From Heliocidaris erythrogramma (Eukaryota; Echinodermata; Echinoidea; Camarodonta; Echinometridae), in NCBI GenBank assembly GCA_025617745.1, contig CM046858.1, positions 35,086,228 to 35,150,227 on the forward strand: a stretch of 64,000 bases of DNA. Direction: 5' to 3'. Made by a program: the position numbers and the translations under genes. How positions within the stretch are numbered: the stretch's first letter is position 1; each line of letters begins with the position of its first letter. Shown here piece after piece: positions 8,100 through 49,200 of the stretch. The notes beneath the pieces were generated by a model. That model searched no databases, was not told the DNA's origin, and saw nothing but the letters and a program-made list of their open reading frames with translations.

Positions 8100-8320
8100 T
8101 TTATCATCATCATTATTTTCATTATCACTATTATTATTATCGTCATTTTTATCATTGTCATTATTATTATTATTATCAACATTGTTATCATTGTTTTAGT
8201 TAAGTATAAGTTGTTATTTCAAGCTATGTAAAGCAATATGTATATCAAGCACTATAAATGTAAACTATTATTATTAATTTTATAATTAACATTATTATTA
8301 TCATTATCATTATCATTATT
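8100..8320. repeat. (ATT/ATC)n-rich intron end
   Basis: Imperfect ATT, ATC and CATTATTATT triplets run up to the polypyrimidine-poor acceptor of tailless exon 2. Confidence 0.8.
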
Positions 8321-8326
8321 CTTTAG

Positions 8327-8569
8327 GTGATCGTCTGCTAGATATCCCGTGTAAAGTCTGCGGAGATCGTAGCTCGGGGAAGCACTATGGTGTCTACGCC
8401 TGTGATGGATGCAGCGGCTTCTTCAAGCGCAGTATCCATAGAAACCGGGTCTATGTCTGCAAGCAGCAAGGCAAAGGAGGAGGAGACTGCCCCATTGACA
8501 AGACCCACCGCAATCAATGCCGGGCCTGCAGGCTCAGGAAATGCTTCGAAGCCCAGATGAATAAAGATG
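8327..8569 (+). CDS. tll: tailless exon 2: two-zinc-finger DNA-binding domain
   Basis: Acceptor TTCTTTAG precedes 8327; donor GTAAGG follows 8569. It encodes about 81 residues with all eight zinc cysteines. The second finger has nine residues between its first two cysteines (KQQGKGGGD). Human TLX and fly Tailless have seven there, as I recall their sequences, so the D-box loop is longer than usual. It ends in NKD plus one base of the Ala codon. Confidence 0.93.
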
Positions 8570-11500
8570 GTAAGGGCTTTTTCCAATTCTTTTTTTTTTT
8601 TTTTTTTTTTTGGTGCTGTGATTGTGGTGGTGAGAGTGATGGTGCTGGTGCTGACGGTGCTGTTGTTGGTGCTGTGATGATGTTGCAATGGTGCTTGTGT
8701 TGGTGATGGTGTTGATGGATGAAATGTTGGTGGTGATGATGGTGGTGGTCGTGATGGTGATGTTGCTGGCTCTGTGATGGTGCTGTGATGGTACTGGTGT
8801 TGGTGCTTTAATGGTACTGTGATGGTGCTGGTGCCAGTTGGTGTTGGTTTTTTGTATTGCTGTTGACGTGTTTATATTGGTTCTGATATCTGTCGGTATT
8901 AGTAGGCTTATAGTATCGATGATAGTACGATGGAGGACAGAAGTCAATGTTAAGATCATTTACACAATTTGATGGGATTTTCGAGCCGTTCGGTTTTAAA
9001 GTGAACACATAATTTCGATAAGTTTCATAATATACTGACTTTGGCTCAATGAATGGCGTTCAGTATCTGTTTTGTGCCATTTCGGCAACACAGTCATATG
9101 AAGTTATTGACATTTGAAATGTCTAAGCTGAATGTTAGATCATATTGGTTTCCCATGACACATGTTGTAAATTTGTGTTTATACATACCTCAGTGTGAGA
9201 TATAATGTTCAGTTCAAATAATTTTGTGTATTATGATCCCTGATGCATTTCGATTCCGTACGGTAATCGCTTGTCACCTTAAAGTAGGCTACAAAAATGA
9301 AGCGATAATGCGCTTAAACTCCTAATCCAGTCAATCAACACTAATTGCTCTCCATTATGTCACGAATAATCTGTAACACGATTGATTTGGAGAGAAAAAA
9401 TATCGATAAATGGGCGTACGGACAGACGGACTTGTCTACCACAAGCACGCGTGCGCTCAATTCGGCTACGTTTGTTTTGACAATATTACAAGTCTTAAGC
9501 ATTCCCGCAGTATTTACCACAATCAGCAAGTGCATATCATATCCCACCAAAACCATAAGCAGTTTCTTTTGATTTTCCCACAAATAAAAGATCCTTTCAT
9601 GGAACGGAAAACCGCACGCTCATACACAGTTGCACAAATACAATCGAGGATGTTTTTTCTCTTGTAGTTAGCCGGAGAGTAGTCTGAAAAGAAGTAGTTA
9701 TATCCAATGAAGGGCGGTGCAGTGATTTATAGCGCTATGTCACCTATCTAATAAGGATTTGTGTGTATGTTATATTTGCAAAATGATATCGTGTAAGGTT
9801 AAAATCTATTTATTCGTGAATTTGCATACCCTCATGAAATTACATAGAGTTTGACCATTGATACTTGTTTGTACTAAAGCGAAATACAATACTTGAAACT
9901 CAGTACTTTATGATATTCAATACTTTAAATAATGCTTTAAGGATGAACTCGTAGAATCCCTCTGTACATCATGTTTTTTTTAATGTTTCTCTTTGTCTCT
10001 CGCTCTCTCTCTCTCTGTTATTTTTCTACATGTTTGTGTAATAAGGAGGAGACGTGGATGTTTAATCCTATAAAAGAAAATTTCATTGCGCAATCTTGTT
10101 TCATAAATATGACTGTTTCTAAAGACATTTTGCAGTGAAACATACTGCTTTCCAATTGATTGTCTCTCTTTTTGTTTTAACCATTATGCAAAGTTTCTGT
10201 GACAGGATTTTTCCTTCATACGCCATACAATGTACTCTTGTCCATATTTTGACCATGCATACTTTGTGGAAACTCCAACTTTAGCCCCTGGCTGGCCTTC
10301 GGCACTATACTTCGGTTCAAAAAGACATCTTTTTTGGCGAGGGAGACGTTAAATGCTTTGACATTTCATTCCTCAAGAAGTCGATGACAGATGTATGTCT
10401 GTTATAACATCTTCAAGCGGATGCCCTTCGCATCCCATCTTCTTATTGCGCGCCAAACACAAATAAGTCAATACCATGCGATCGTCTGCAAACGAAATGC
10501 ACGAGATGGCTCAGATCTTTGGCCGCTTTTCGGCTGGAGCTTTGCTTTCATTTCACAAAGTTTCCCCCAAATAAGATAGGAATGGAATAAAAGGAATATT
10601 TTTAGATAATAGGAGTATCCTCGAGATTGAGCGAGGCTTGTTGATATGCCCTCGGGCTAAAAAGGCGAAACCGTGGGCTTCATCAGTGGATGGCTTTATT
10701 GGAGTCTTATTGAAAGGATGCGCAGTTTATCTTCTAGCCGCTGTGTTATCTCATGGCATTGAAATTGAGTCTTTAAGATTCTTTTCATTTGTCTTCTGCG
10801 CTAAAAACCTAAGTTTGCAGTACTTCTTCCCCTCGAGTTATTTGTACTTTAAACTTGTCCTGCACTGTTATCTTCGTGTCCTGTTTTTCATATTTGCTAT
10901 TAAATTAAGTATACGACGTCGTATGTTATCTTGCTAGACAAGTACGACGTGAAGCCTTTAATACACCGGCTCTTCCTAAATAATGTATTGAACGTACTTT
11001 TAAATTTCAAAGAACTTTTCCCCCCATTTTAATGAAACCTTTAGATATCTTAGTAAAAGGGTGTTTTCTTTAAAAGCAGCCCCCCTCTCTCTCTCTCTTT
11101 CTATATATTTGTCTATTTATCTATCTTTCTATCTATTTATCTATCTGTCTATCTGTCTATCTTTCAATCTATTTTATCTATCTGTCGCACTGCATTTTTA
11201 ATGTGCTCGTTACTTTTGTGCATATTTTTAGCGTTACTTCTGTATAGATTGGTGTTAGTAGTGATTCTGTTGTTTGACTGGAATCATTAGAAGCTTGGAG
11301 AATCATATACAGTGCGTCTCAGCAAAAATATTAACGGTTGGAAAAAGTCTCCCCAAAAAAATGTTTCAAAATATTTTTAGGAAATTTTCATATCTGTGGA
11401 TAGCTTACGGACTCTTCTATCAGATGACACCAAATTATCTACCAATATTTTACGCTTTAGTGAGCAAAAGCCAATTTTGTGAAAGGGTGCACAATCCAGA

Positions 11501-15826: not shown

Positions 15827-18800
15827 AAATCAGCCAACTAAGCACCTGCTATAGGCCGGTGTTATTTTTTCTAGTTCTGTGATCTCTGTTATTGTAAAGG
15901 ATAGATTTTTTTAGTAGAATAACAAGGTTATACTCCTCTTCCTGTTGTGTTTGAGTTGTCAATCAAGATGGACAAAATATATGCAATGGCTTTGATAGTA
16001 GCTTATACAAATCACGATGAGGGGAAGCTTTCTATAATCCTTCCTTTGTAAAGTCTTTTAAGTCTCTTAAATATATATATATATATATATATTTGTTTGC
16101 TGTTCGTTATGCAATTACAATCTTTATTACAATACTAGTAAACATTAATACAAACACCAACACCGAGCGTGAAATCACCCGTTGCATATTTTATGGTATA
16201 AATTATTTATTGACTAAATGATTATGCTGAGAGAGTGCAATCTTGGTAAAGACTTTTAAAGAGCTATATCTTTTTCAGTAATAGTTTGTTGTTAAAAAAT
16301 GTAAATTAATAACTCATAACAGCAAAGTGAACAGCAAAATATTAACAAAAGACATTAATTTTGTTAAACACACATCAATATGAAATGGAAAAAAATTGCT
16401 CCAAACACCAACGCGGTAACACCATACACCAACACCGAGCGTGAAATCACCCAATCATTGTATATGCATTTCTTTCCTTTCATATTGATATTTGTTTATC
16501 AAAATGAAAGTTTGAACTCGTTCAAATTCGTATTTATTTCATTTCCAACAGAAGGAAAAGACAATGACATTATAGATATTATTACAGAAAATATGAAAAA
16601 TTTATGTTCAAATTCATTTTTTCTTGATAAATTATGATAATGAATTATTAAAAGAAATTCTTAGTTTCTGAGGAAATGTGGGGGATCCACTAAAAAGCAG
16701 TACTTGTAATCTGTGGGTCCCCAAATCGTTGAATCGTTGAATCGTTGAATATAATATTAAATTAGGAATGTGTAATATGAGTATGACACATAATAAAGCT
16801 CTCGATGTTTAGGTATACTCTTCCAAATATGCGCATCTTGATAAATCTATTTTCTCTATTCCTCTTTGTTTATCAGCTGTTCAACATGAACGTGGTCCAC
16901 GCAAGCCAAAGAATAAGCCACTGGGTTCTCCAGATGCACGATCAACAGGAACACCAGGTACACTTCGATCTCTGACCCCTAACAGCACCACATCAATAAG
17001 CCCCTTGCCCCGCCACCCCAGCCACTCGATCTTACCACTGACCGTACCACACCGCCCACTGCCCGGAGACAAGTCACCGCTGACCGGTGCCTCAGCCCCG
17101 CTGCCTCCCCCGTCCAGTAGTTTCATATCTTCGTCAGTTTACTACGGTACGTTTTATCACAGCCTTCTCACCGCAGAGCACTACAACATCAACCCGCTCG
17201 CACTGGACGCGTTACGGGAAGATGACGGGGGAGAGATGGGTCGAGTAAAGGGTCTTGGAACGTCCATTGCTACATCGCCAGATAACTTACCGGAAGTAAC
17301 GGCGAGACTTCTATTTACGTCAGTGAAGTGGGCAAAAAACATCACGTGTTTTAGATTGCTGCCATTCAGAGACCAGGTTCGTGGCGTATCCAGAATTTTT
17401 CCACCGAATAATTATATATCTATTCCTTTATAGCCATCTCTTCAATCGTTTTCAAAACAACATTTTTGATGTAGTTATTCATAAAACAATTAGCTATTAC
17501 AGATACTGTATAGGTCTATAAATGTAATTCAGATATTAATGTTCATCATTTTTTACATTGGCATGCTGGTAACCAACGGAAATATTATCTTACACGTATA
17601 ATAAACAAACACGATATTTGACAAAATCTTATCGAGTTAACATTGGATAATTATAATTTAGATACCCCCCCCCCCCCCCCCCCCCCCCGAAACTAGGCAA
17701 TATTGAAAAGGCATGAAGAAGATTTTTCAATTTTGGAAAACGATTATCCCATCATATTTTCAAACTCAAGTATCAGTCCATAAAAGTTGATTTGTGTTCC
17801 CATTTTTTAAGTCCACATTTTTGCAGTTGGAATGACTGTACGGAGAAGTTCAACAAACCACTTTGCTTCCAGAAATTCATCCCATAAACCTCATTGGCGG
17901 GTACAGGTACCCAATCTGACATTATTAAGTACCCTAGACAACAGGAATGAAATGTGCGCGAATCTACCATCATAGACTATAATTATTGTTGTTATTCAAC
18001 CACAATTAGATGATTTAGATAATTAGTAATTTTTTAATATTTATTTTCCACTCGTGCAGCTTATCCTTCTTGAGGAGACATGGAGAGATTTGTTCCTGAT
18101 GGGAATGTGCCAGTGGGCGGTGCCACTCGAAACAGATGCCCTCCTCAAATCACTGGAAAGGAGTATGAGCGTGAAAGGAGACAAGACCTCAGCCGAAACT
18201 ACGGCAGAGCTCGCATCACAGGTCCGCTTCATGAAGGACACGGTTGCTAAGCTACGGGCGATGAAAGTGGACTTTACAGAGTTTGCGTGTCTGAAGGCTG
18301 TAGCATTGTTCAAATCAGGTACGTATATTCTCATAACGTATAGGCATTCGATCTAATGACAGAGAGAGAGAGAGAGAGAGAGGAGGAGGGAAGAGAAAAA
18401 AGGGGGAGGGTGGAAAGGGTATTAACATGAAATGAAGATTACATACGACCCCCTCCCACGGCCAAAATCAACCCATTTCATCAAAGGAGTTAGACCGGTG
18501 ACCCTCCCATGTTCTCGGTGCCCCTCAATGTCCGGATAAACACTATTTGATTTTCCCTATTAATATTAAAAGAAAAAGTAAAATATCTATATATAGTTCG
18601 TATAGATTCACGGAAAATGTGACCTCAAATCGAACTTTTTATGTGAAAAGGTAGGTAGGAAAGTATAATGAAAGATCGAATGGGTGGCCTGTGGTGGCTG
18701 GGGTAGAGGAGTTGCTCAGTTAGATTAAATAGTCATTTTTGCTACTTATTAACTAATTTTGTGTTACAGATGTCTGTTTTATCCACCCACGTGTTGACAA

Positions 18801-22602: not shown

Positions 22603-22608
22603 TTTATT
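22603..22608 (-). promoter_or_regulatory. AATAAA polyadenylation signal of the solute-binding-like gene
   Basis: TTTATT on the + strand reads AATAAA on the - strand, about 97 bp after the stop codon at 22705. Spacing is normal for a short 3' UTR. Confidence 0.5.
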
Positions 22609-22619
22609 ATATTTTAAAA

Positions 22620-23040
22620 AGTTTATCTCATAGAAGATGAATCATGTAGCATTGTAATGCAAGGCGATCCTCTAGAAAGTACCTGAGGCCATTGCTTAGT
22701 GTGCTCAATAACCAATGCAGATATCTGAAGCAGTGGAACCAGGAATATCACCTGCAGTCGAAAAAAGAAAAGGACGAATAAATATTACTTTTTTATTTAA
22801 AAATCAAATAAAAATATATTGGTCTAGATAACGGGCTTTTTATTTCTTCTTCTTTTTTTCTCCTTATTTTTCTCCTCTTCTTTCCTTCTTCTTCTCCTCC
22901 TTCTTCTTCTCCTTCGTCTTCTTCGTCTTCTATTTCTTTAAATCTGTAATCCATAGAAGATGATTTAGCATTTCAATGCAAGGAGTTCCTCTGAAAAGTA
23001 CCTGACGTCACTGCTCAGTGTATTGTTGAAAGGTTAGACA
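22620..23040 (-). repeat. duplicated 3'-UTR segment
   Basis: The roughly 80 bp just after the stop codon (22628-22712) recurs, diverged by about a fifth to a quarter, at 22948-23033, inside the last intron of the same gene. Shared words include CATAGAAGATGA, AATGCAAGG and AAAGTACCTGA. The similarity starts at about the stop codon and does not cover the coding part. A CTT/TCC-rich tract (22840-22932) separates the two copies. Confidence 0.65.
22705..22751 (-). CDS. solute-binding-like protein, terminal coding exon
   Basis: 47 bp after a CTGCAG acceptor. It completes a Gly codon and reads DIPGSTASDICIGY followed by TGA at 22707-22705. The tail is short and not conserved in any family I know, but phase and stop fit. 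A poly(A) word lies about 100 bp beyond. Confidence 0.7.
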
Positions 23041-26000
23041 ACATTTACGAATACTCCACAGGGCCCCTGACATTCGCGACAAATATATTTCAATTTAATG
23101 TAGACTTAATAAGTACAGGGACCGCAGAACCGGGGGATGGGGGGGGGGGGGGGGCTACAGCCCCCCCCCCCCCCCCAACTGTTTCAGTAAACACGTGCAA
23201 ACGTATGGTAGTGCAAAAATGTGGTATACACGCAGCCCCCCCCCCCCCCCCCCCCCATTTAGGCCCTTCCACTTTCCAAGACGTTCCGCGGCGCCTGAAG
23301 TATATAGTCATACCGTGCTCGTTGACGATATTTTGACATATGGTCTCGTAACGACTGGTCCCGACGAGTCTACTGAATGCATCGTCCCACCAACGAACGA
23401 ATTCTTTGTTGGCCTTTGAAGTCATCATACTTCCACCGGCCGCTTCACACTTATTCGGAAAGTCTGCGGGAGAAATAGTTTCCAGCGCAGCGTCGAGTTG
23501 GGGTCGTATAACACTGAAAGCGACATCGACCTTTTTGAGAATAAAACAAATAAATATCAATTAACAGATGTCTGATTTTACTTACGTGTTGATAAAGCAT
23601 GGTATAACCATGAGACTACAGTGACTGATAAATTTTCAGTGGATAATGTTTGTGATGGTGTAGGTCTAAACGAATGAAATTGTTTTTGCGTGTTTGACAC
23701 TTCAACATCTACTTCTGATATACAATAAGTAATATTTAACGCCCCGATTGGTCACAATCATCACCATCACCAGTCACCATAAGTCACCTACTACCAGCAG
23801 TCAACAACCACCAACATTCACCACCACTACCACCCATTACCACCACCACCAGTCAAAACCACCTCCACTAAAGGTCGCCACCATCATCACCACTACTACA
23901 ACAACTAGTCACCATGACAAACACCACCAATAGTCAACATCATCACCACCACCACTAGTCACCACCACCACCACTACCACCACCACCACCACCAGTCACA
24001 ATCATCACCACCACCAACATTATCACCATCACCATAACTACCACTACTAGTCACCACCACCACCATCACCATTAATTCACAATCATCACCACCAGTCACC
24101 CACGGTTCTAGGACAACTACCCTCTGGACAATTACCCCCGGACAACTACACCCTGGACAACTATCCCCCAGGACAATTACCCCCCGGGCGATTACCCCCC
24201 CCCCCCCCCGGAAAAGTACCCCCATGTAATGATGATTACCCCCAAGGATAATACCCCCGACATTCTGATCCCCAGGACAACTACCCGCAGATTCAGGGGA
24301 GTAGTTGTCCGGGGGTACTTGTCCAGGGGGTGGCTGTTCGGGGGTAGTTGTCCGGGGGTAGTTGTCCTGGGGGTAATTGTCCTGGGGGTAGTTGCCCTGG
24401 GGGTATAGTTGTCCTGGGGGTAATTGTCCTAGGGGTAGTTGTCCAGGGGGTAATTGTCCAGGGGATGGTTGTCCGGATACGGTTACAAACACCAGTTATG
24501 ATTTCCACCATTCACCATCATCACCACCACCAAATCACTAATTAAAAGCACCTTTAATGATTTAACATGAGGCCAACCTCTGAAATATGTGTCGGGCCGA
24601 CAGGAAAACCGCAAGCCTATGATACCGTGAACACCTTCAGTAAATAAAACAAAAAATATATATATATACACTAAAGGAAAAAAGAAACTTATAAAAGTTC
24701 AAGAGATCACCAAATTAAATTCTCTGCATGGAAATGTACCAAATTTGGATATAATGTTGATTCAATGCATGGCTTTAAATGACAGTCAATAACAAAAAGT
24801 TTTCTTCAATGCCACAAAAGAAATGTGCACTGAAACAAAGGACTCTCTAATCCCAAAGTCACAAAGATAAACTGCAGTCTTGTACACCATATGCATGTCA
24901 ATGAATGAAACAAAAGAATTTCAAAAGGGATTTGCACCCCTCGAGCAAGAGGATATTGATGTTCTGCCATGGTTCGCCCGTTCACCAGACCTTTCCCCAA
25001 TTGAACATCTCTGGGAAGAGCTTGGTCGACGTGTGTCAAGGCGTGACAATCAACCCATCAATAGGGAGACGCTCATTGCAGCACTGCAAGAGGAATGGAA
25101 CAATGTTCCCCAGGCTACCATCGCGAATCTGATCGGAAGCATGCGAAGACGGTGTACAGCTTGCCAGCAAGCTAGAGGTGGACATACTGGCTATTAATCT
25201 GTTTGGATATGAACTTGCAAATCCCTTTTGAAATTCTTTTGTTTCATTCATTGACATGCATATGGTGTACAAGGCTGCAGTTTATCTTTGTGACTTTGGG
25301 ATTAGAGAGTCCTTTGTTTCAGTGCACATTTCTTTTGTGGCATTGAAGAAAACTTTTTGTTATTGACTGTCATTTAAAGCCATGCATTGAATCAACATTA
25401 TATCCAAATTTGGTACATTTCCATGCAGAGAATTTAATTTGGTGATCTCTTGAACTTTTATAAGTTTCTTTTTTCCTTTAGTGTATATATCACAAAGATG
25501 AAACTTACATGTCCGTTCTGCACGGCGGCGATCAGCTCTTCAGCTGTATCGTAAGTGATCTTCTGACTATTACATGGCAGATCGGCTCCCTGGTAGCAAG
25601 ATAAGGTCGTAAAAGTAGAGGCTTTTAAAATTTACAGTAAAACCCAAATAAAAGATGTTTTAAATCCATTGATTTCCTCGTACATATTTTGTCTGACACG
25701 TTAGGGATTTACTGACTCATCTCCGTTGAAGAATCAGTTGTAAAAGACTGCTAAGTCTAATAATTTGTTTCAATCGTGTCAATAATTATAATGTAACATG
25801 CCAATAGCAAGGAACAGGACAAGGGAAAGACGGTGGTAATATTCATGTAGGGGGGAACAAAAAAGGAAAATTAGCAAAGAAAAGGGGAGGGAGGGAAGGA
25901 GGGAGGGAGGGAGGAAGGGAGTGAAGAATAGGGAGGGGAGAGGAGGATCGGGAAGAGATGAAACATGGAAAGTTGGTGAGGGGGTGAGGAGAAAGGGGTG

Positions 26001-28316
26001 GGAGGGGGAGCATGATATGGAGGAGGAGGAGGAAATGAGAGTGGAAATCACTGAAGGAAAAAGGAGTGGAGGTAAGAAATCATGCAGATATACAGAAGCA
26101 AAAATAAGCATCATAGTATTTATCCATACCACTATGGGGTGGCATGGATCGGTGGCGTAACGAGCCAGACATGCCTCATCAGAGAACCATGTTGCTAGGA
26201 AACCAACTCTGAGCCCTGAAAGATCGGAGTAATCCTGACTGCTTCCACTGAGGGCGTAGAGGGCGACCTTGCCCTTTTGAAAGAAGGGTCGTGTGAAGTC
26301 GAAGGTGAGGAGACGATCATAGGTTTGGATCCATCCTAATTTATACAGAAAGAATAATGAAGGATTTAATATTCATTGTTTATGGATAAAGCCTAGCCTC
26401 CCTCAAACCATCCTCCAAAGTTGAAAAATCATACCTAATTTCCGATGAGCAGAAAAATTTGATTATTACAAACTGTATCTCAAATTCGTGAAGTCTAAAT
26501 TTTGTAATAGTTTGTTGCTTGAAGTAACAATTAACTAAACTTTTCATAGCAGTGCCGATAGCGAGTTATCTCTGGAAACAAATGCCCACAAATCATTTAT
26601 AAAGCAGGAAGATATTTCTGTTACCAATTACACTCTTGAGAATTAAGTGATTGCTTAGGCCACAATTCCTTATGTTAATAGTTAGGAATCTTTTATGTAA
26701 GTTTGCCAATAGGACAAGAAATAGTAAGACAAGCAACAGAGTTGAGGTCATCACTTCAAAAAGGGGTATAATCTTGGAGTGGGTGTACTTAATGTATGCC
26801 ATGAGTTCAGATATTTATTCTTACCTGTACAGGCGGAGTACCATTTAGCCATCAAACCGACACCTCCCCGGGCTCTCTCGTTAGCTGGGCTGTCCCAGCA
26901 GTTACTGTACAAATCCCACACCAACTCACAGTCTTTGTTAGCTATATCACATACTGAAATAAAAACAAAAATATTCATATCAATAACATATTTCATATTA
27001 TGACTTTTATAATACATCTATTCGCATATTATGAGAGACGGACTGCCAATAAACAAAATACATGGAACATATAGGTCTATGATGTATAATAGGATAAGCT
27101 CATTCATATAAACCCCATTATAATTCTACCTTGCTTATTTTGAATGTTATGAATTCGGTGTTTTGGGGCTGCAAGCATATCAAGCTTTGGCTGCATAGGT
27201 CGTATCATCAACCTTTTTACATTCGTATGTACACGTTCTATGTTAACACTGAAATGTGATGTATTGTCTGATGTTACAGTAACAAATAAATATTTCACCT
27301 ATTCCACCTACTATTGAGTAATGATATTTAGTAATGACTCGCAGTTATTCATCTCGACCACACTCAGGAGACCACAAGAGCAGAAACGAGAAACAAGACA
27401 TATAAGAACAAATATCTAAAAATGCACTAAGAGATTAGAAGAAGTATTGCAGATTTCTCTTAGTACTTGTTTTTTGTATACCTCTTTGACTCTATACACT
27501 TTATCATGTTTATATAGTGTTTTATGGTTTGTAAATTTGGATGAAATGAAGTTCAAATATCGCCAGAATCATAAAAACATAACAATTCTATGGTTACCTG
27601 CATCGATAATATCGACATTATATCCCTTGATCTGATATGATACAGGGTCCCTGAAAGAAAAAAAATAAAAGAGTGTTTCCGTTAAGAGTGGTTCCGTTAA
27701 TCAAGAATTGGGAATTTTCAATAAAAGTCAATAAATGTTAATATTTAGTACATAATAAAAAAAATAAAAATAAAATATCTAGAATATATGTTACTTCGAA
27801 GTTCCACGAAATGGGTCATTGACAAAAAAAAAAAAAGTCTGCTTATGAATCGCTGCATTACGTTAGCCCGCTGACTACTGAATTTTCTCATTCCTATATA
27901 GTTCAAGTTCAAGTTCAAGTTTAGCTTCCACATTTCATTAAAAATCATAGCAAATATCATACAAAATACATACAGTATATATTGCATTTTTTAATAAAAT
28001 CAATAACGGTGAATCATATAAGTAGAACGCGAAGGGGAACAACAACACGCCATTGACCTTTCGAGGCTGCACCCCAGAAAAGGTTATGGCACAGGGACAA
28101 CCCGGTTTCCGTGTGCAACGGGTTAAGGTAACTTTTACCGGATAGCAGGACAAAGAGAGGGTTGAAATATACCATAAGCATGCATGATACAACAGGACTC
28201 AGGACAGATGGTTTAGATTTTTTTTGTTTAAATATGTTTTGATTGCTAACAAAATCGTCTTGATCCTGACGAAAATTATTCTTGATGGTCTTTCGTATAT
28301 GTTTCACATAGGAAAG

Positions 28317-28374
<58 letters not shown>

Positions 28375-31300
28375 CCTCTCCCTCTCTCTTCCGGCCCTCC
28401 CCAAGTCTCGAACATATTCCAGACATTATAGTACTCTCTTCCGAAACCCATCTTTTCATATCCTTCTTATCAACTGAGCATAATAATAATTGACGTCTCA
28501 TTAATATTCTTCACCCCATTTTTTGTCTCTGTGCATTTGTATTCATAACAGTTAATGTGTCATGGAATTAAAGTTGTGTACATCTCGGTCACATCTCAGT
28601 CAGTCCTGCATATATTTGGTACAAACACACGGAAATATGAAGAGGTTTTACTCACAGATACTCCAATCGGTTGTCATAGTCACCAATCGCGAAGAGCCAA
28701 ACTTTATCATCAGATCTAGAAGCTGTTATAGATTACAGGAATAATGAAATAATGGCAAACAGGTAAAACTCTTTAAAAAATAATACTACTTGGTAAAAAT
28801 AACAATCCCAACTTGAGGGTAGTTTCATTTCATTTATTTCCACTTCCAACAAAATAAAATGCATAGGTTTACATCGTACATAGCAAATCAATAAAACTTA
28901 AATTATTAGTTGACTTGTTGTGTCCAACAAACCTTGGGCGATGTTGTGCACAATCTAGGTTATTTTGTCCAATTATTTCGTTTAATCACCAATTGGAAAA
29001 AAGAAACCCGAGTAAGGCATAAATAATCGTTTGTATAGTGGGGTGGGCACAATTTTTTTGTACCTATGATACATATTTTTGACGGGGCTATATGGTCCAA
29101 GAGACGGCACGGAACGGACAATGTCGATCAGACGGGCCTTCTGAAAAGCATTGTGGGGGTTCACAAGGCCAACAGCCCTCATGACTGACAGCCCACGATA
29201 CCGACATGTCGGTCTCAAGAGCCCCGACAGCTTGTCCGAGGGTTCATGAGACCGACATTATTAGATTTCATTTCGTTTATTTTTTTTTCCACTTCCAACA
29301 AAATATGGGTTTGCAGTGTACATAGCAAAACAATGAAACACTGAAAATAATACATGTAATTGGTTTACAACGTACAATAGACATACAAAACATTATAAAC
29401 TATGGTCGTGGAGGGGACTGCTAAAAAGGTGGGCTTGTAGATTGCAGCCCCCTATAATAACTTACAGTTGCAAAAATGTGTATCTGTAAAAAGGGAACGT
29501 ACATACATAGTAAAAAGACTGACGGACAGTCAGCCTGTCCGAAACGTCGAATCTTCTCCACACTCAGCTTTCTATCTGGTTTACAGTCCTTTTCAGGACT
29601 TCACACTTTCAAGAAAGATTACTTCTACACTCTCTGAATTTTTAGTTCGCCTATAAACTAGGCACTATAAACTATGTTTTTCTGACTTTCTCAATAATGT
29701 TTGATATTCAGTTTACAGATCGCAAAATACTGGGATACTTTATATTAAGGAAGCTACTAACATATGCAATGGGAATAGGAGAGGAGAGAGAAATATAGAG
29801 AAAGAGGGAAGAGATAAAAAGAAAATACATGTATACATCAGGAAATTTAAAATCTGAGAGCAGGGGACAGGGGGCTCCCCCCCCCCCATGATTTGCCAAA
29901 CGTAGCCAAATTGTAGATTTTGTTGTGTTTTGTTTTTGTTTTTTGCTTGTCAGACATTTTTTTTAGACCTGTGTCCCCATCCCATAGAAATACGCTGGAG
30001 CCGCCCCTGTGTGGGAGAACAAAACGACTAAGGAACAAATGGGGAGACCACTCTATAAAAATAAATTAATAGAAAGTGAAAATTTCTACTCGGATGTCTA
30101 CTAAGATTTTATCCCCCTAAAGTCCCTGATCCCAGAGCTTTTCAGGTAACTATTTTTGTGTTTAATGAGTAAAATCTCTTGGAAACCGACTTCCTGCCCA
30201 ACAGGGCATATAGCAAATCGAACAAGCCTGCAGTTCTTCGTGTGTTTCTCTCTTTACAAATTCTTTTACTTTTTACTCCTTTCATTTCTTATCGTTTCCG
30301 CTATCACGTCATTAGTTGCGTTGCCATTGTATTTCTCTTGTGCTACTGCTATCCGAAGAGAAATGTTAGTTTCTGTATTATTTTGGCATTCATTCATACA
30401 TTCCATCATTCATGAACTTTTTCTTTCCCTTCTTTCGTTTGAGCCAGCATTTTTTTTTTTATGAATTAAGCTATTCCGTCGATATGTCTTAAAGCCATGT
30501 TTTACTTTACAAATTTTACAAACCTGAGATGGTGCATGTTCTATTACTTTCAACAGTTACATATCACAGATGAGAGAAATCAAATGAAGAAAGATATCTT
30601 ACGTATGGATGATACGAATGTAAAAACTACATAAGAAATTAACTATAGCAGGAAAGTAAAGATATCAATTACAGGCGCGGATCCAGAGGGGGCGTAAGGG
30701 GCGTGCGCCCCCTTTTGTCTGACAAAGTATGCCCCCGGACCCCATAGATGGCCGTTTGGCTTCGTCAAACGGAGGGTTCCTCAGTGTGCGCGCCCCTTTC
30801 TGAAATGCCCTCCCCTTCTGAAAATCCTGTATCCGCCCCTGAATTATAACTTTTTATTGCAATGCAGGATATACAGAAAGAACGAGGTGTTGTTACATTT
30901 TAAATGAGCGTTATGGTCGGGGGCGATTGGTCGAAAGCTCACATCTCCTTTATGATATAGCATATAGTCTTGAGCTAAAATGCCCTGTAAATATTTCGAT
31001 GGGGCAACTACCGATGGCCCTAATACTTTAGATGATCAACGCCCCTGGATTCAAATTATATGGCGCCAAGCTATAAGAAATCATACGAAATGTACTCGGT
31101 GGAAGATGTATAGGGGGATAACCGGATCGTGCCGTCCCCCTGGAAACTCAATTTTATACCAACAAAATACCCCTTGTGTAACTTTTCAGAATTGTGCCCC
31201 CCCCCCCCCCCCACACACAGTCCTATACAAATTCTTGGATACGCATATGTATGTACTTACAAGATGATGATGAGGAACTGGAGCTGCTACCGGAGCTGCT

Positions 31301-31492
31301 AGCGCTAGCGATGCTGCTATCCCCAGTAGTAGTCCCGCTTTTACATGCATAGATGTTGTAATCGGCCCTGCCTGCTAACCCCACCTGGGCCAAACTTAGG
31401 GCCCCTAGGACCACGCCCACTGTGGCTAGCATGAAGGCACAACACATCAGAAAAACCACCAGACATAACTTGTTATCATTATCGGACGACAT
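22705..31492 (-). CDS. membrane-anchored solute-binding protein family 3-like protein (nine exons, 343 aa)
   Basis: Minus-strand exons 31261-31492, 28656-28722, 27598-27650, 26825-26953, 26130-26335, 25509-25589, 23314-23530 and 22705-22751 join in phase with GT/AG at every junction and no stop. (With the uncertain first UTR exon this is about nine exons; eight are coding.) Residues 1-8 are polar, 9-40 form one hydrophobic segment, then a Ser-rich linker lies near 58-80. From about residue 82 the protein follows the bacterial SBP family-3 order: KVWLFAIGDYDN strand, KGYNVDIIDA, IQTYDRLLTFDFTRPFFQKGKVALYAL, DLSGLRVGFLATW, ITYDTAEELIAAVQNGHVDVAFS, then a C-terminal WWDDAFSRLVGTSRYETI helix. About ten cysteines suggest a disulfide-bonded extracellular domain. 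A type II topology and binding of an amino-acid-like solute are inferred. No vertebrate name is recognised. An ionotropic glutamate receptor is unlikely because no channel segment splits the two lobes. Confidence 0.85.
23138..23257. repeat. poly-G / poly-C tracts next to exon 7
   Basis: A G run (about 23140-23153), a C run (23161-23176) and a second C run (23237-23256) follow the donor of the 23314-23530 exon. They can form a G/C hairpin and are prone to length error. Confidence 0.9.
23314..23530 (-). CDS. solute-binding-like protein, exon 7: end of domain
   Basis: 217 bp, acceptor CTCAAAAAG, donor GTATGA. It begins VDVAFSVIRPQ, the V-D-A-x-x strand. The Asp that usually follows this strand and binds the ligand amino group is not obvious, so specificity may differ. 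MTSKANKEFVRWWDDAFSRL then YETICQNIVNEH matches the closing helices of the family. Confidence 0.87.
23748..24080. repeat. (CAC/CAT)n-rich microsatellite
   Basis: About 330 bp of imperfect CAC, CAT and AGTCACCA units in the intron after 23530. AGTCACCAC acts as a higher-order unit. Confidence 0.9.
24111..24474. repeat. inverted minisatellite of a 14-bp GGGGGTARTTGTCC unit
   Basis: The left arm (24111-24280) carries the unit as GGACAAYTACCCCC; the right arm (24298-24474) carries the reverse complement GGGGGTARTTGTCC, at least twelve times. The whole is a large imperfect palindrome. Frames through it give repetitive GQLPP peptides that are not proteins. Confidence 0.9.
24669..25483. mobile_element. 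Tc1/mariner-derived element with 268-bp inverted repeats
   Basis: Ends CACTAAAGG and CCTTTAGTG sit between TA dinucleotides. The terminal inverted repeats, 24669-24936 and 25215-25483, are almost identical (one clear C/T difference seen). The 278-bp centre encodes, on the + strand, the C-terminal end of a Tc1 transposase: WFARSPDLSPIEHLWEELGR, then LIAALQEEWNNVPQ. Catalytic N-terminal parts are absent, so it is non-autonomous. It lies in the intron between the 23314 and 25509 exons. Confidence 0.92.
24937..25197 (+). pseudogene. Tc1-family transposase C-terminal remnant
   Basis: Open frame reading EQEDIDVLPWFARSPDLSPI, then EHLWEELGRRV, then NVPQATIANLIGSMRRR, ending TAA at 25195-25197. The SPDLSPIEHLWE motif holds the last part of the DDE/D catalytic domain of Tc1 transposases. 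Everything N-terminal of it is missing. It is internal to the 24669-25483 element. Confidence 0.9.
25509..25589 (-). CDS. solute-binding-like protein, exon 6
   Basis: 81 bp, phase 0 at both ends (acceptor CTACCAG, donor GTAAGT). It reads GADLPCNSQKITYDTAEELI, then AAVQNGH, equivalent to the helix before the lobe-2 strand (bacterial Y-D/x-T-x-x-E-x-x-x-A-L-x-x-G). Confidence 0.87.
25860..26060. repeat. purine-rich (GGGA/GGA)n tract
   Basis: About 200 bp of GGGAGG and GGAGGA units in the intron between the 25509 and 26130 exons. Reading frames in it are low complexity. Confidence 0.85.
26130..26335 (-). CDS. solute-binding-like protein, exon 5: lobe 1 to lobe 2 crossover
   Basis: 206 bp, acceptor TAAATTAG, donor GTATGG. 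IQTYDRLLTFDFTRPFFQKG corresponds to the bacterial I-T-x-x-R-x-x-x-V-D-F-T-x-P-Y stretch. The Arg in that stretch usually contacts the ligand carboxylate. YSDLSGLRVGFLATW corresponds to the D-L-x-G-x-x-V-G-V strand that starts lobe 2. Confidence 0.88.
26825..26953 (-). CDS. solute-binding-like protein, exon 4
   Basis: 129 bp, acceptor TTATTTCAG, donor GTAAGA. It reads VCDIANKDCELVWDLYSNCW, then ANERARGGVGLMAKWYSACT. Position and content fit the segment that links the first strands of lobe 1 to the ligand-contact loop. It has four cysteines, more than bacterial relatives carry. Confidence 0.85.
27598..27650 (-). CDS. solute-binding-like protein, exon 3
   Basis: 53 bp, acceptor TTTCTTTCAG, donor GTAACC. 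It reads DPVSYQIKGYNVDIIDA, equivalent to the G-(F/Y)-D/N-V-D-(I/L) motif that follows strand 1 in family-3 solute-binding proteins. Confidence 0.85.
28319..28395. repeat. (CT)n microsatellite
   Basis: Over 50 bp of uninterrupted CT, then CCCTCTC variants, within the intron between the 27598 and 28656 exons. Confidence 0.95.
28656..28722 (-). CDS. solute-binding-like protein, exon 2
   Basis: 67 bp between a CAG acceptor and a GTGAGT donor. It completes the split Ser codon and reads SRSDDKVWLFAIGDYDNRLEY plus two bases of Leu. It matches the first beta strand of the SBP fold. Confidence 0.82.
28820..29460 (-). repeat. two copies of a probable LINE 3' end
   Basis: TTTCATTTCATTTATTTCC, then ACTTCCAACAAAAT, then TACATAGCAAA, occurs at 28826-28890 and again at 29268-29330. 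Read on the minus strand both end in (AAATGAAAT)n, like the tails of CR1/L2-type LINEs. The second copy extends to about 29455 (GCAGCCCCCTATAA). No reverse transcriptase is seen, so family assignment is tentative. Confidence 0.45.
29519..29550 (+). ncRNA. hammerhead-ribozyme-like motif (decayed)
   Basis: CTGAC, then stem GGACAG-TCAGC-CTGTCC, then GAAAC-GTC. The stem II hairpin and the GAAA box are intact, but the CTGANGA box is incomplete. The downstream text TTTCAGGACTTCACAC resembles what I recall of Penelope-like elements, which are known to carry hammerheads. Activity is unlikely. Confidence 0.35.
30672..30841. mobile_element. MITE with GGCGCGGATCCAG / TATCCGCCCCTG ends
   Basis: 170-bp unit with imperfect terminal inverted repeats (CAGGCGCGGATCC and GTATCCGCCCCTG). 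The centre has GCCGTTTGGCTTCGTCAAACGG, a strong hairpin (GCCGTTTG, then CAAACGG). It is in intron 1 of the solute-binding-like gene. A related TGGAGCCGCCCCTG end lies at 29997-30010. Confidence 0.65.
31261..31492 (-). CDS. solute-binding-like protein, exon 1: start, transmembrane anchor, Ser linker
   Basis: The ATG is at 31492-31490 and the donor GTAAGT after 31261. It reads MSSDNDNKLC, then a hydrophobic run of about 30 residues (LVVFLMCCAFMLATVGVV...), then YNIYACKSG, then a serine tract encoded by imperfect agc/tcn repeats. There is no cleavable signal motif I would trust, so a signal anchor is the simplest reading. Confidence 0.8.
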
Positions 31493-32062: not shown

Positions 32063-32837
32063 GCTTATATAACTCAACTTACTGTACAGAATTTGAGGCA
32101 TCACTGTATTGAATTTGATCAGGTAAACTGATTTCGCAAATCCTGTTATCGCATTAATAATTTATTTCCCCGATTTTTTAGTAGCATGGTAGAAATTTGA
32201 TCTAAATAAATTAATTAGGGTCTTACTTTGAATCTATGTTTCAAGAGAAGGATATGAAGAAAACATGAGGGGTGTGGCGGGGTGTCGCAATCTTTTTTTT
32301 TTTTTTTTAATTATTCCACATTTTTTCTCTCTATCTCTCTCTTTCGAAAATGTAGGGGGAGGGGTGGGACTTGACTAGCCTTTAACATTAGTTGTTATAT
32401 AGTCTTCAAATTTTCCGGGGGCCCCCCCCCCCCCCCCCCCCCCCGGTCGCCGCGAACGATTCGGGCAACAATCCCCTCTATATTCTAGGGGACGACAATA
32501 TGTTCCCCCGACTATTCGTAACGAGTTATTATTCTCAATGACGAAAATTTTATTCTGGTGCCATGGATCTAATACCAGCGGTTGTCACCATAAAAGAAAA
32601 GTCTAAAAACCGTAGTTGTATTTTAGATATATTCAGATATGAAAATTATATTCGTGATGACGGATTGATGCCCACGCATGAAATCACGCACCAATGGGCA
32701 CCCCACTGCCAAAAATCGTTCCGCGGGGCCTGATGGGAACCAATTCCGATGCATGGGTCTGGTGAAATAGAATGGATGAAATACACATCATTGTATAAAG
32801 GAAGATTATACAACTCAACTTACTGTATAACTTACTC

Positions 32838-40313: not shown

Positions 40314-42017
40314 TATGCCTCCGCCTAAATTCAGTTGATGGCTCAAACTCTTCTAGAAATATTTGATAATGAGGCTAAAAACCAGTAATTTCATGTAATT
40401 TTATGTAAATTGACCTCTGTGACCTCTGACCTTTGACCTACTTACCCCAAAATCTAAACAGTTCATCTTTCTATGGGTATGCATACTGGTACCAAGTTTG
40501 AAGTTCTCACCTCAGATAGTTCTTGAGATATCGCGGTAACGGTGCTAAAAACCAGTAATTCCATGTAATTCCATGTAATTTCATGTAAATTGACCTCTGT
40601 GACCTCTGAACTTTGACCTACCTACCCCAAAATCTAATCAGTTCATCTTTCTATGGGGATACATACTGGTACCAAGTTTGAAGTTCTCACCTCAAACAGT
40701 TCTTGAGATATCGCGGTAACGGTGCTAAAAACCAAGAATTTCATGAAATTTCATGTAAATTGACCTCTGACCTTTGACCTCCTTACCCCAAAATCTAATC
40801 AGTTCATCTTTCTATGGGGATACATACTGGTACCAAGTTTGAAGTTCTCACCTCAAACAGTTCTTGAGATATCGCGGTAACGGTGCTAAAAACCAAGAAT
40901 TTCATGTAATTTCATGTAAATTGACCTCTGTGACCTCTGACCTTTGACCTCCTTACCCCAAAATCTAATCAGTTCATCTTCGTATAGGGAAACATACTAG
41001 TACCAAGTTTGAAGTTCTTACCTCAAACTCTTCTAGAAATATTTGATAATGAGGCTAAAAACCAGTAATTTCATGTAATTTTATGTAAATTGACCTCTGT
41101 GACCTCTGACCTTTGACCTACTTACCCCAAAATCTAATCAGTTCATCTTTCTATGGGTATGCATACTGGTACCAAGTTTGAAGTTCTCACCTCAGATAGT
41201 TCTTGAGATATCGCGGTAACGGTGCTAAAAACCAAGAATTTTTATGTAATTTCATGTAAATTGACCTCTGTGACCTCTGACCTTTGACCTACTTACCCCA
41301 AAATCTAATCAGTTCCTCTTTCTATGGGGATACATACTGGTACCAAGTTTGAAGTTCTCACCTCAAACAGTTCTTGAGATATCGCGGTAACGGTGCTAAA
41401 AACCAAGAATTTCATGTAATTTCATGTAAATTGACCTCTGTGACCTCTGACCTTTGACCTCCTTACCCCAAAATCTAATCAGTTCATCTTTCTATGGGGA
41501 TACATACTGGTACCAAGTTTGAAATTCTCACCTCAAACAGTTCTTGAGATATCGCGGTAACGGTGCTAAAAACCAAGAATTTCATGTAATTTCATGTAAA
41601 TTGACCTCTGTGACCTCTGACCTTTGACCTCCTTACCCCAAAATCTAATCAGTTCATCTTCGTATAGGGAAACATACTAGTACCAAGTTTGAAGTTCTTA
41701 CCTCAAACAGTTCTTGAGATATCATGGTAACGGTGCTAAAAACCAAGAATTTTTATGTAATTTCATGTAAATTGACCTCTGTGACCTCTGACCTTTGACC
41801 TACTTACCCCAAAATCTAATCAGTTCATCTTCGTATGGGGATTCATACTAGTACCAAGTTTGAGGTTCCTACCTCAAATGATTCTTCAGATATCGCGGTA
41901 ACGAGAAGTGGGACGGACGGACGCACGCACGCACGCACGCACGGACGGACGGACGGACGGACGGACAACCCGAAAACATAATGCCTCCGGCACCCACCTT
42001 CGGTGGGCGAAGGCATA
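40314..42017 (+). mobile_element. tandem-repeat transposable element A (pearl/HINE-like)
   Basis: Sub-terminal inverted repeat TATGCCTCCGCC at the left matches TATGCCTTCGCC (reverse complement) at the right, where it closes a hairpin (CCCACC-TTC-GGTGGG). Between are about nine units of about 165-170 bp. Each carries GTGACCTCTGACCTTTGACC, ACCAAGTTTGAAGTTCT and GAGATATCGCGGTAACGG. An (ACGC)n(ACGG)n microsatellite follows at 41920-41966. This order (repeat core, tetranucleotide tract, hairpin end) is that of bivalve pearl and DINE-1/HINE elements; no protein is encoded. Confidence 0.85.
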
Positions 42018-46200: not shown

Positions 46201-49200
46201 CAAGACCAAAAACAAACTCAATAATGAATTTGGGTTTATATTTTATCACGTGTGAATTGCCATCTACTGGTGTCGTATCAATACAATGTATATAATTGTA
46301 TTTGTAATTTACATACATGTATTGTGATCAAAATTTGGGAATGCGGTTCTTTCTTTCAATCATTCTTTCTTGATTATACACCTTATTGCTAGACGTATAC
46401 ATCTGATCGTTTCATGAACAAGAAAAGACATGATCAATAAAATAAAAGAAAATGAACAGAAAGAGAACAAAGCAAAACGAATAGACGACTGATTGTCCTA
46501 ATGCTTTAACTCTCAGGTTTCCCCTTTTCAAACACTCGTGATGCGGTATCATACTTACATGTTCTGCTGATGCTTTTGATTTGCTCCTGCTGCCAGAGTC
46601 CCCCATGACCGTTGCGTCTCCCGTCTTAGCCGAACAGTACATATTCCTACCCAGTTTGATGACCCTGTCCCCTTCCATTTCAAATGACCCCTCCTTGAAT
46701 GAAGCCACATATTTCCCTTGGAATGAGAACTCTTCCGTCTCTACCTGCTTACCATCACGGTTGAAATATCTGTCAAAAGAGGAAAAAAAATGTAAGCAAA
46801 ATGTAGAATATAATAGTGTCAATATGAATGAGTTTAATAGGATCCATGACTCACTGACTTTGTACATATTTATTGGAACAATTAAAAGAAGAAGAATAAT
46901 AGCACAAGTAACTGTTATAGATATAACAGCACGTATGTACTTTTCAAGTTAATACAATCAACTGATCTAGAGCACTTTACATATTATCCTGGGGGCATTT
47001 CATCAAGTGTCTTGTCTGTGATATTTACCGACAAATTTGCTCTCAGCCAATCAGATGCAAGGATTTCAGTAGCTTATAACAGTGATTGTAAATTGTCAGT
47101 GAAAGCAAGTTTCATGAAACAGGGCCCCGGTCATTAACCTTTTCCCAGCTTTGGTCAACTAGTGGAACAAACACTGGCCTGCCTCATTTAACTTTTGGCA
47201 CACGCAGAGTTTACCATGTATATTCCTACTACTTACAGCAGTCTTTGGGTTTGATCCATAGCACAAAAAAAAAAAAAAAAAGGAGTTAATTGGATCAAAG
47301 TGATTTCTAGAATATAATGCGCACTGGCCTATCAAATTACACATCACTAATGTTAGCTTCATGTACATGTATTCTACAGGAAAAAAAAATCATCTACATG
47401 TACATGTACACTTAATATGCATAGCAGAGATACAGGTACATGTACGTACATGTATTACATGGTTTGTCATAATCATTTGCTCTCAAATGGAAATCTTCAT
47501 TGCTTTCATTTAAAGATTGATATGAATCACATTTTAATACACTGTGAGATCAATCTTGGACTGCTACACGTGTGAAATGCATTGTGTGACACCTGACATT
47601 GTATGGACAGCAGAATGTAGAGGTGTTGTGGTCTAGTGAATAAGTCACTGGACTGCAGATCACAAGGTACGGGGTTCGAATCCCACCACAGCACAAACAT
47701 CATTTTGCAATACACTAATCTACATTTGCCACTCTCCACCCAGGTGTAAATGGGTACCTAATATGCTTGAGCGCTAGTTACTTTGGCAGCTCGGCTATAA
47801 CCAGGGTAATAATGTCTAAGCGCCATGAGCGTCACTGCGTGACGGATATGAGCGCTATATAAGTGGCCATTATTATTATTATTATTAATGTGGTCTCATG
47901 CATCTTCACCCTTCATACTGTGTCTACACATGAACAGATACAAACATGAGCAGAGCCGATGTTGGAACAATCTGATAATTCAGCAGTCTATAGTGTGGGT
48001 CACATGTCCGTTAATGATAACGATGACGAGATTTATCACTAAAGATACACCCTAAAGCTACCGTACTATGAACAGACACAAGCATACTCACTCATACACA
48101 CCTATTAGTAGGGTGTACCCGTAATTACAGATAAAGTAGAGTTCTGGTGATGCAATTATATTGTGAAAGGAACTGTCTCAAAAGAATCAGGCAAGGTTGA
48201 CCATGTCTACATAAGAATTATTTTATACTGTGTTGTTTTGGAATCATCAAAATAATAATAATAAATGTAACTTATAGCGCCAAATCCACTCTGTGGAGTG
48301 CTCAAGATAAAAAATTGACCCAATCTCGCTGAAAGGCACATGTACTGCACACAGAAATGAGTATATGGGACTACACACACACACACACACACACACAAGT
48401 GGCATGAATGTTTGGCCGGAACATTTCAACTATTTCAGCGTTTGAAGAGTAATCCTTATCAGGGGATGTTTCTACTACATGTATCATGTTCTTCCAAACT
48501 GACATATAAAAAGGAATGAGAAAGCTCACAAATTATTTTTCACCTTTCCCAGAACTCAAGATTCCCTTCAAAAAACTTGCGATCGTTATCGGTCAAATGT
48601 CAACCAGGCTTTACAGTTCCACATACACAACATATACAAACCTGATTGTTCCTGGGATCTCTGTGCCATAGGGGACAGTGCCACCCAAAGAATGAACAAA
48701 CCTTCCATTAGAACTCTGCACCTTCTCTTTCAAGAAAATGGACACCTGGAAAGAACAAACCAAAGACTGTTTTATAGGGTATGAATCTTTGTAATATCAT
48801 TTAAGCAGGCTCAGGATTTCTCACACATGTACATGTACAATTGAGGTATGATAAAAATAAAAATGTATAATTTAATTGCCCAAACATTAACTTCTTTTCA
48901 AGTAGAGGTTGTTTTTTTTTTATATTCCATCGTATTATACAGGTATGAGAGAGCAAAAATTGTTGGTATCTGGTAGGTTTTGGATGAATTTACTGCACTA
49001 CATGTACAGGTGTATCCTCACTAATTTGTAATTTGTTCATCATTAAACCTATCATAAAGAGAAAAAAATCCATACAGGACTGCATGTATGCACATGAACA
49101 TAGATTTTGTTCAATTTAGTTAGATGTAAAATCTCTTTTTCTAAAATCGCTTGTCAATACATCATTTGACAACGGATACACACAAAACCAATGCATTTTT

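Follow-up and report, generated by a model that had tools for sequence, protein, structure and literature searches.

Can an animal genome encode, as a free-standing protein, the solute-binding domain of bacterial amino-acid-binding proteins, which animals use chiefly within glutamate-receptor channels and their relatives? The question is raised by a locus of the sea urchin Heliocidaris erythrogramma. A preliminary description of a 64,000-nt stretch of contig CM046858.1 (the whole stretch is called the window below, and its contig C6 in our naming of loci) had proposed there, at 22705–31492, a single gene for a membrane-tethered binding domain of SBP family 3. The observation of this gene and its domain is confirmed. 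What is new here is that the gene is widened to an old echinoderm family of 13 loci. At a probability of roughly 0.6, we read the window gene as belonging to an echinoderm family with about 13 loci, the predicted products of which carry a single Venus-flytrap domain of SBP family 3, in this case on an N-terminal membrane anchor.

When the gene model was rebuilt from the sequence, eight exons on the minus strand joined in frame into a 343-residue protein followed by TGA, at the place, in the phase and with the length first described. The coding introns, previously given as eight, number seven, all GT-AG. Exon 1 (31492–31261, residues 1–78) contains the ATG, the N-terminal tail, a hydrophobic anchor at about residues 9–30 and a Ser-rich linker, and ends at the donor GTAAGT. 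Lobe 1 begins in exon 2 (28722–28656, residues 78–100; VWLFAIGDYDNRLEY), which has a similar exon at most paralogue loci, and continues through exon 3 (27650–27598, residues 100–118; YQIKGYNVDIIDA) into exon 4 (26953–26825, residues 118–161) with a CX6C motif and the pair Cys-Trp (C136, W137). Exon 5 (26335–26130, residues 161–229) encodes TYDR with Arg168, FDFTRPFF and, in a channel-free read-through, the start of lobe 2. It is followed by exon 6 (25589–25509, residues 230–256; GADLPCNSQKITYDTAEELIAAVQNGH) and by exon 7 (23530–23314, residues 257–329), which encodes VDVAFSVIRPQ, with V263 at the position of a bacterial Asp, and the closing helix WWDDAFSRL. Exon 8 (22751–22705, residues 329–343) encodes GDIPGSTASDICIGY and the TGA stop; paralogues end similarly. 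A possible polyadenylation signal (AATAAA, 22603–22608, minus strand), recognised by its sequence only, lies 97 nt past the stop. An alternative exon 7 with its end 41 nt further on, at a weaker donor, was dropped. The protein has 14 cysteines and no N-glycosylation sequon. Its single hydrophobic stretch reaches a 19-residue hydropathy of 2.79, against a maximum of 0.88 after residue 60. The described order of signal anchor, Ser linker and one uninterrupted two-lobed domain stood, with both lobes aligned as detailed below.

The domain of the window protein matches the Pfam profile PF00497 (SBP_bac_3) at E 9e-07, its 29.1 bits exceeding the curated cut-off of 26.4. A profile built from 12 bacterial binding proteins gave it 34.1 bits; among 2000 shuffled versions of the domain the highest score was 12.4. 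The match is not due to chance, and by its sequence the protein is a member of the PF00497 domain family. PF00497 was matched at E≤10 by all eight family members (best 1.2e-11), the score being set against the cut-off for the window protein alone. Single-sequence searches of the PDB gave weaker matches. With the whole protein the best match was ArtJ at E 0.0028, in an alignment that takes in the Ser-rich linker against a Ser-rich stretch; with the domain alone another amino-acid-binding chain came first (0.018) and ArtJ followed at 0.04.

The family as a whole was then compared with PDB chain sequences, where its profile matched 57 at E≤10. The best was 6h30, GlnP, at 1.1e-11 over two tandem domains (9.7e-6 for the better domain alone), and the next (3tql, 1hpb and 2m8c, 4e-7 to 7e-7) were arginine-, histidine- and cationic-amino-acid-binding proteins of bacteria. 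The PDB holds many animal glutamate receptors; none is named among the 57 matching sequences. An hhalign comparison of the family with the 12 bacterial proteins gave a probability of 99.4 and E 5.7e-21 over 213 columns spanning both lobes, as would be expected of a full-length, two-lobed SBP_bac_3 domain.

These comparisons bear on the idea that the protein is a channel-less offshoot of the ligand-binding domain of an ionotropic glutamate receptor (iGluR). Such domains share the fold class and a carboxylate-binding arginine. A similar R...DFTxPF motif, the presence of real iGluRs in the same genome and a plant glutamate receptor at E 1.2 in a single-sequence search also speak for this origin. 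We nevertheless reject it as strongly disfavoured. In addition to the family profile, which reaches bacterial proteins and no animal iGluR, the iGluR profiles PF10613 and PF00060 were listed for none of the eight members (limit E≤10, with HMMER filters dropping most matches above 0.1). The CX6C motif, presumably a disulfide in HisJ and LAO, is present in 8/8 family members and, at the same place of the alignment, in 8 of the 12 bacterial proteins. It was absent from four stop-free iGluR pieces of this genome and from a fifth with stops at its start; two of the seven pieces compared gave no clean frame. Finally, exon 5 passes unbroken from lobe 1 to lobe 2 where iGluRs insert their channel. Matches to both PF10613 and PF00060 in the genome were confined to C6 47 Mb, C8, C9 and C15, and all 12 PF00060 matches fell at these iGluR loci, none at a family locus. 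An exon-by-exon PF00497 search of the genome finds two iGluR exons and misses the binding-protein family, which marks the limit of such a search. The earlier interpretation of a channel-free domain with kinship to bacterial SBP-3 proteins is supported, as far as predicted proteins can tell.

How many such genes does the animal have? The genome (1,064,227,859 bases in 26 contigs) was searched by tblastn with the window protein. At E≤10, 58 matches were obtained and grouped into 13 loci on three contigs of 49–79 Mb: C6 at 14.16, 23.73, 34.85, 35.11 (window) and 37.70 Mb; C1 at 8.52, 8.73, 13.45, 13.48 and 14.16 Mb; and C21 at 28.03, 28.06 and 28.11 Mb. Seven weak rows outside these loci, with E between 0.002 and 0.85 and almost always in the hydrophobic, Ser-rich first exon, were treated as chance. 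The most divergent copy, used as query, returned 41 matches and no locus beyond the 13, which suggests that the list is close to complete at this sensitivity. The gene first described as single is thus one of about 13.

The exon layout recurs in the paralogues. Among hits reaching the first or second residue of an exon, with the window gene and its twin included, an acceptor AG was found at the same codon and in the same phase for 8/8 hits of exon 3, 13/13 of exon 4, 12/13 of exon 5 (the exception being C21 28.11), 10/10 of exon 7 and 8/8 of exon 8 at seven loci; AG occurs at about 5% of positions by background frequency. The counts for exons 3 and 8, which are short, take in some weak hits (E up to 1.5). 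An equivalent of exon 6 was taken at 12/13 loci and is partly fitted, because candidates with a certain peptide pattern were favoured in the search; the one chosen at C1 14.16 was not the first-ranked, and at the thirteenth locus, C1 13.48, a match was seen in the divergent-copy search. The exon 6 donor is GC instead of GT at C1 8.52 and 8.73, and the exon 7 donor is GT at all 11 modelled loci. Joined exons 4–7 were free of stops in 10 of these 11; C21 28.11 has a stop inside exon 4. At C21 28.03 the exon 7 matches fall in two frames. Several models are partial: C1 13.45 is without exon 3, C6 37.70 without exons 2–3, C6 23.73 without exon 2 (the fetched stretch starts too late), and C1 14.16, C1 8.73, C1 8.52 and C21 28.11 without exon 8. 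The family tree has little resolution, with one starred branch of five.

About 255 kb from the window gene, at C6 34.85 Mb, lies a twin copy whose protein is identical over 210 codons of exons 4–7 (synonymous differences per site, pS, 0.007). The aligned pieces around it are 93–99% identical to the window. A recent duplication and an assembly duplicate would both fit. A second near-identical pair was observed at C1 8.52 and 8.73 Mb (L043 and L042), about 212 kb apart; either segmental copying over a distance or duplication in the assembly could account for this pattern of two such pairs.

Intron 6 of the window gene also contains a foldback element (24662–25490) with 275-nt arms, 100% complementary, flanking a transposase tail that resembles Tc1/mariner (DDE_3 at E 0.0074, below its cut-off). 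As the element is missing at the twin locus and at the other fetched loci, it is probably young. The same intron holds a minisatellite (24110–24475) whose 15-nt units resemble GGGGGTAGTTGTCCT and run in both orientations. Runs of G or C, 16 to 23 nt long, lie in or beside the gene at 23139–23154, 23161–23176, 23236–23256, 31197–31212 and 32422–32444.

To estimate age and selection, ten models representing eight distinct proteins were compared. In all 43 non-twin pairs, synonymous differences were saturated (pS 0.72–0.90), with nonsynonymous differences (pN) of 0.29–0.49 per site. Saturated synonymous sites together with a retained protein indicate that the genes are old and were kept as proteins; that is, the predicted family is old and under purifying selection. 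Seven cysteine positions are invariant in the eight aligned members, and an eighth, C340, is present in all six members that include exon 8. The many extra cysteines noted at the outset are in this part a family trait, whereas Cys 225 and 235 are peculiar to the window gene.

Nothing beyond the bacterial kinship of the domain speaks for bacterial contamination or a very recent transfer, which seven introns, 13 loci on three large contigs and saturated synonymous sites refute in practice. The window gene is a settled animal gene, as had been claimed. In addition, one single-protein scan of a prokaryote genome collection, by short peptide patterns, gave 32 pattern matches and no relative. A family scan of prokaryote genomes gave a single 24% match, in Serratia plymuthica (L065), among 88 pattern matches, and scans of viral contigs gave no relative. 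Among plasmids, tblastn at E≤10 returned 83 records; the best 20 of these 83 had E-values of 0.1 to 9 at 22–27% identity, and wherever a feature was named it was a substrate-binding protein. Three phage records were matched (E 0.003 to 0.09). As an observation in its own right, Pseudomonas phage Cygsa01 (L066 3115–5048) carries annotated hisJ and doeB side by side, that is, an amino-acid-binding protein in a phage. SBP_bac_3 genes have also been described in anaerobic gut fungi, likewise as a bacterial-type domain gene in a eukaryote; they are reported as independent transfers to single fungi (PMC11291939), whereas the echinoderm family is old, intron-rich and multi-copy.

Next, we asked what such a domain might bind. 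The pocket register was taken from the hhalign alignment, in which R168 aligns with the arginine contacting the ligand carboxylate in GlnH and related proteins, W137 with the aromatic stacking position and V263 with the Asp that holds the alpha-amino group. The Arg of TxxR is present at 13/13 loci and in 12/12 bacterial proteins, and Cys-Trp at 13/13 loci. The amino-group Asp, found in 9 of the 12 bacterial proteins, occurs at none of the 12 loci read (V,V,I,T,Y,N,N,N,T,E,E,E). A second polar contact, Thr or Ser in 10/12 bacterial proteins, is I163 in the window protein, with Ser at one of the 13 loci and Thr at none. From this we infer a pocket that would trap small carboxylates, its remaining contacts being altered and diverse. 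The altered, variable amino-group site suggests different ligands for different paralogues, in most cases something other than a plain alpha-amino acid.

The loss of the amino-group Asp would also suit an enzyme on the binding-protein fold, such as bacterial cyclohexadienyl dehydratase, which the family profile matched at E 0.12. The scores of amino-acid-binding proteins against this profile are far better, and we think an enzyme very unlikely. Compared with bacterial SBP family 3 (PF00497: GlnP domains, ArtJ, HisJ, LAO), the family shares the alignment of both lobes, the TxxR Arg, the CX6C motif and a DFS/T-P-Y/F motif found in many of these proteins. It differs by seven introns, the N-terminal anchor and the Ser linker in the animal gene, by two lobe 1 insertions, 4 and 7 residues long (hhalign), and by the lack of the amino-group Asp and of a detected ABC importer permease in the genome.

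A further alternative concerns the N-terminus, which might be cleaved, so that an untethered domain is shed to scavenge or carry its ligand. Small residues after the hydrophobic stretch are compatible with such a secreted form, and the 8 residues ahead of the stretch are too few for a cytoplasmic signalling part. On the other side, the stretch is long and the Ser linker would suit a tether; we regard secretion as unlikely, if far from negligible. First exons were sought at 10 of the 13 loci, with candidates picked by hydropathy. A hydrophobic first exon was found at five of these ten (the window, its twin, C6 14.16 and the C1 8.73/8.52 twins), and the other five gave no candidate or none alike.

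Several points weigh against the reading of the window protein as a tethered, bacterial-type flytrap. The anchor exon was found in just part of the family, and two of the five are near twins of others. The charges flanking three anchors (N side -1, 0, -1; C side 0, +1, 0) leave the orientation undecided, and the stretch may be a cleaved signal peptide or sit in the membrane the other way round. The genome gave no hit to the ABC importer permease profile PF00528 (E≤0.01), which was positive in 14/14 control genomes; this search reads exon by exon and could miss an intron-split permease. Identity of the window domain to the 12 bacterial proteins is only 16–25%, and four NCBIfam matches were weak and not near their cut-offs (best ArtJ at E 0.0096, with a longer exon 7 in the model). 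Moreover, variation at one or two pocket columns among eight distinct genes is weak evidence for different ligands.

Weighing these points, we still read the protein as a tethered Venus-flytrap domain of SBP family 3. As the amino-group Asp is absent and no permease was found, it does not appear to belong to the amino-acid-binding, transporter-linked subgroup. Its cysteines and its kin would place the domain outside the cell, where it would be held by disulfides and would close on a small carboxylate-bearing ligand through the invariant Arg168 and Trp137. With only 8 residues before the anchor and no transporter found, it may act by capture, by shedding or through a partner receptor. Most likely, then, the protein would be a Venus-flytrap tethered at the surface, where it would capture small acidic ligands and act via a partner or by release. 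The Venus kinase receptors of invertebrates offer a comparison: they are reported to combine a tyrosine kinase with a flytrap likened to those of class C GPCRs and, like the predicted echinoderm protein, have an animal extracellular Venus-flytrap and one membrane segment (PMC4026697, PMC2680970). The predicted echinoderm protein differs in having no intracellular domain.

Other features of the window were observed as well. Two plus-strand exons resemble nuclear receptors, at 8290–8706 (zf-C4, E 9e-28) and 16813–17433 (Hormone_recep alone, weakly matched at E 0.025, short of the cut-off); by the P-box we take them to be of the NR2E group. Satellite arrays were found at 40374–41903 (nine copies of 170 nt), 52616–53310 (161 nt) and 59594–60448 (328 nt). 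A 178-codon open frame on the minus strand (46412–46948) has hydrophobic stretches and no Pfam family above cut-off. Elsewhere in the genome, COX1 on contig C24 reads well with the echinoderm mitochondrial code, in which AAA is Asn in RMNNMSFW and PPLSSN; we take these positions to be conserved and the sequence to be sea-urchin-like.

No paper on such an echinoderm family was found in the open-licence PMC literature, a search that cannot show that nothing is in print, and single members may already sit in sequence databases under a generic domain name. Tentatively, and with more doubt than confidence, we propose an undescribed animal family for chemosensation or ligand capture: about 13 echinoderm loci for tethered, free-standing binding proteins of bacterial type, whose descent from the bacterial polar-amino-acid group would be separate from that of glutamate receptors. 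With the Arg/Trp pocket kept and other contacts varied, the copies may be specific for different small acids, such as metabolites from microbes or food. An old, expanded version of the domain, free of both channel and transporter, would mean that animals employ this ligand trap in a second way, and the family would provide a defined set of proteins with which the sensing or capture of dissolved small molecules can be tested in echinoderms.

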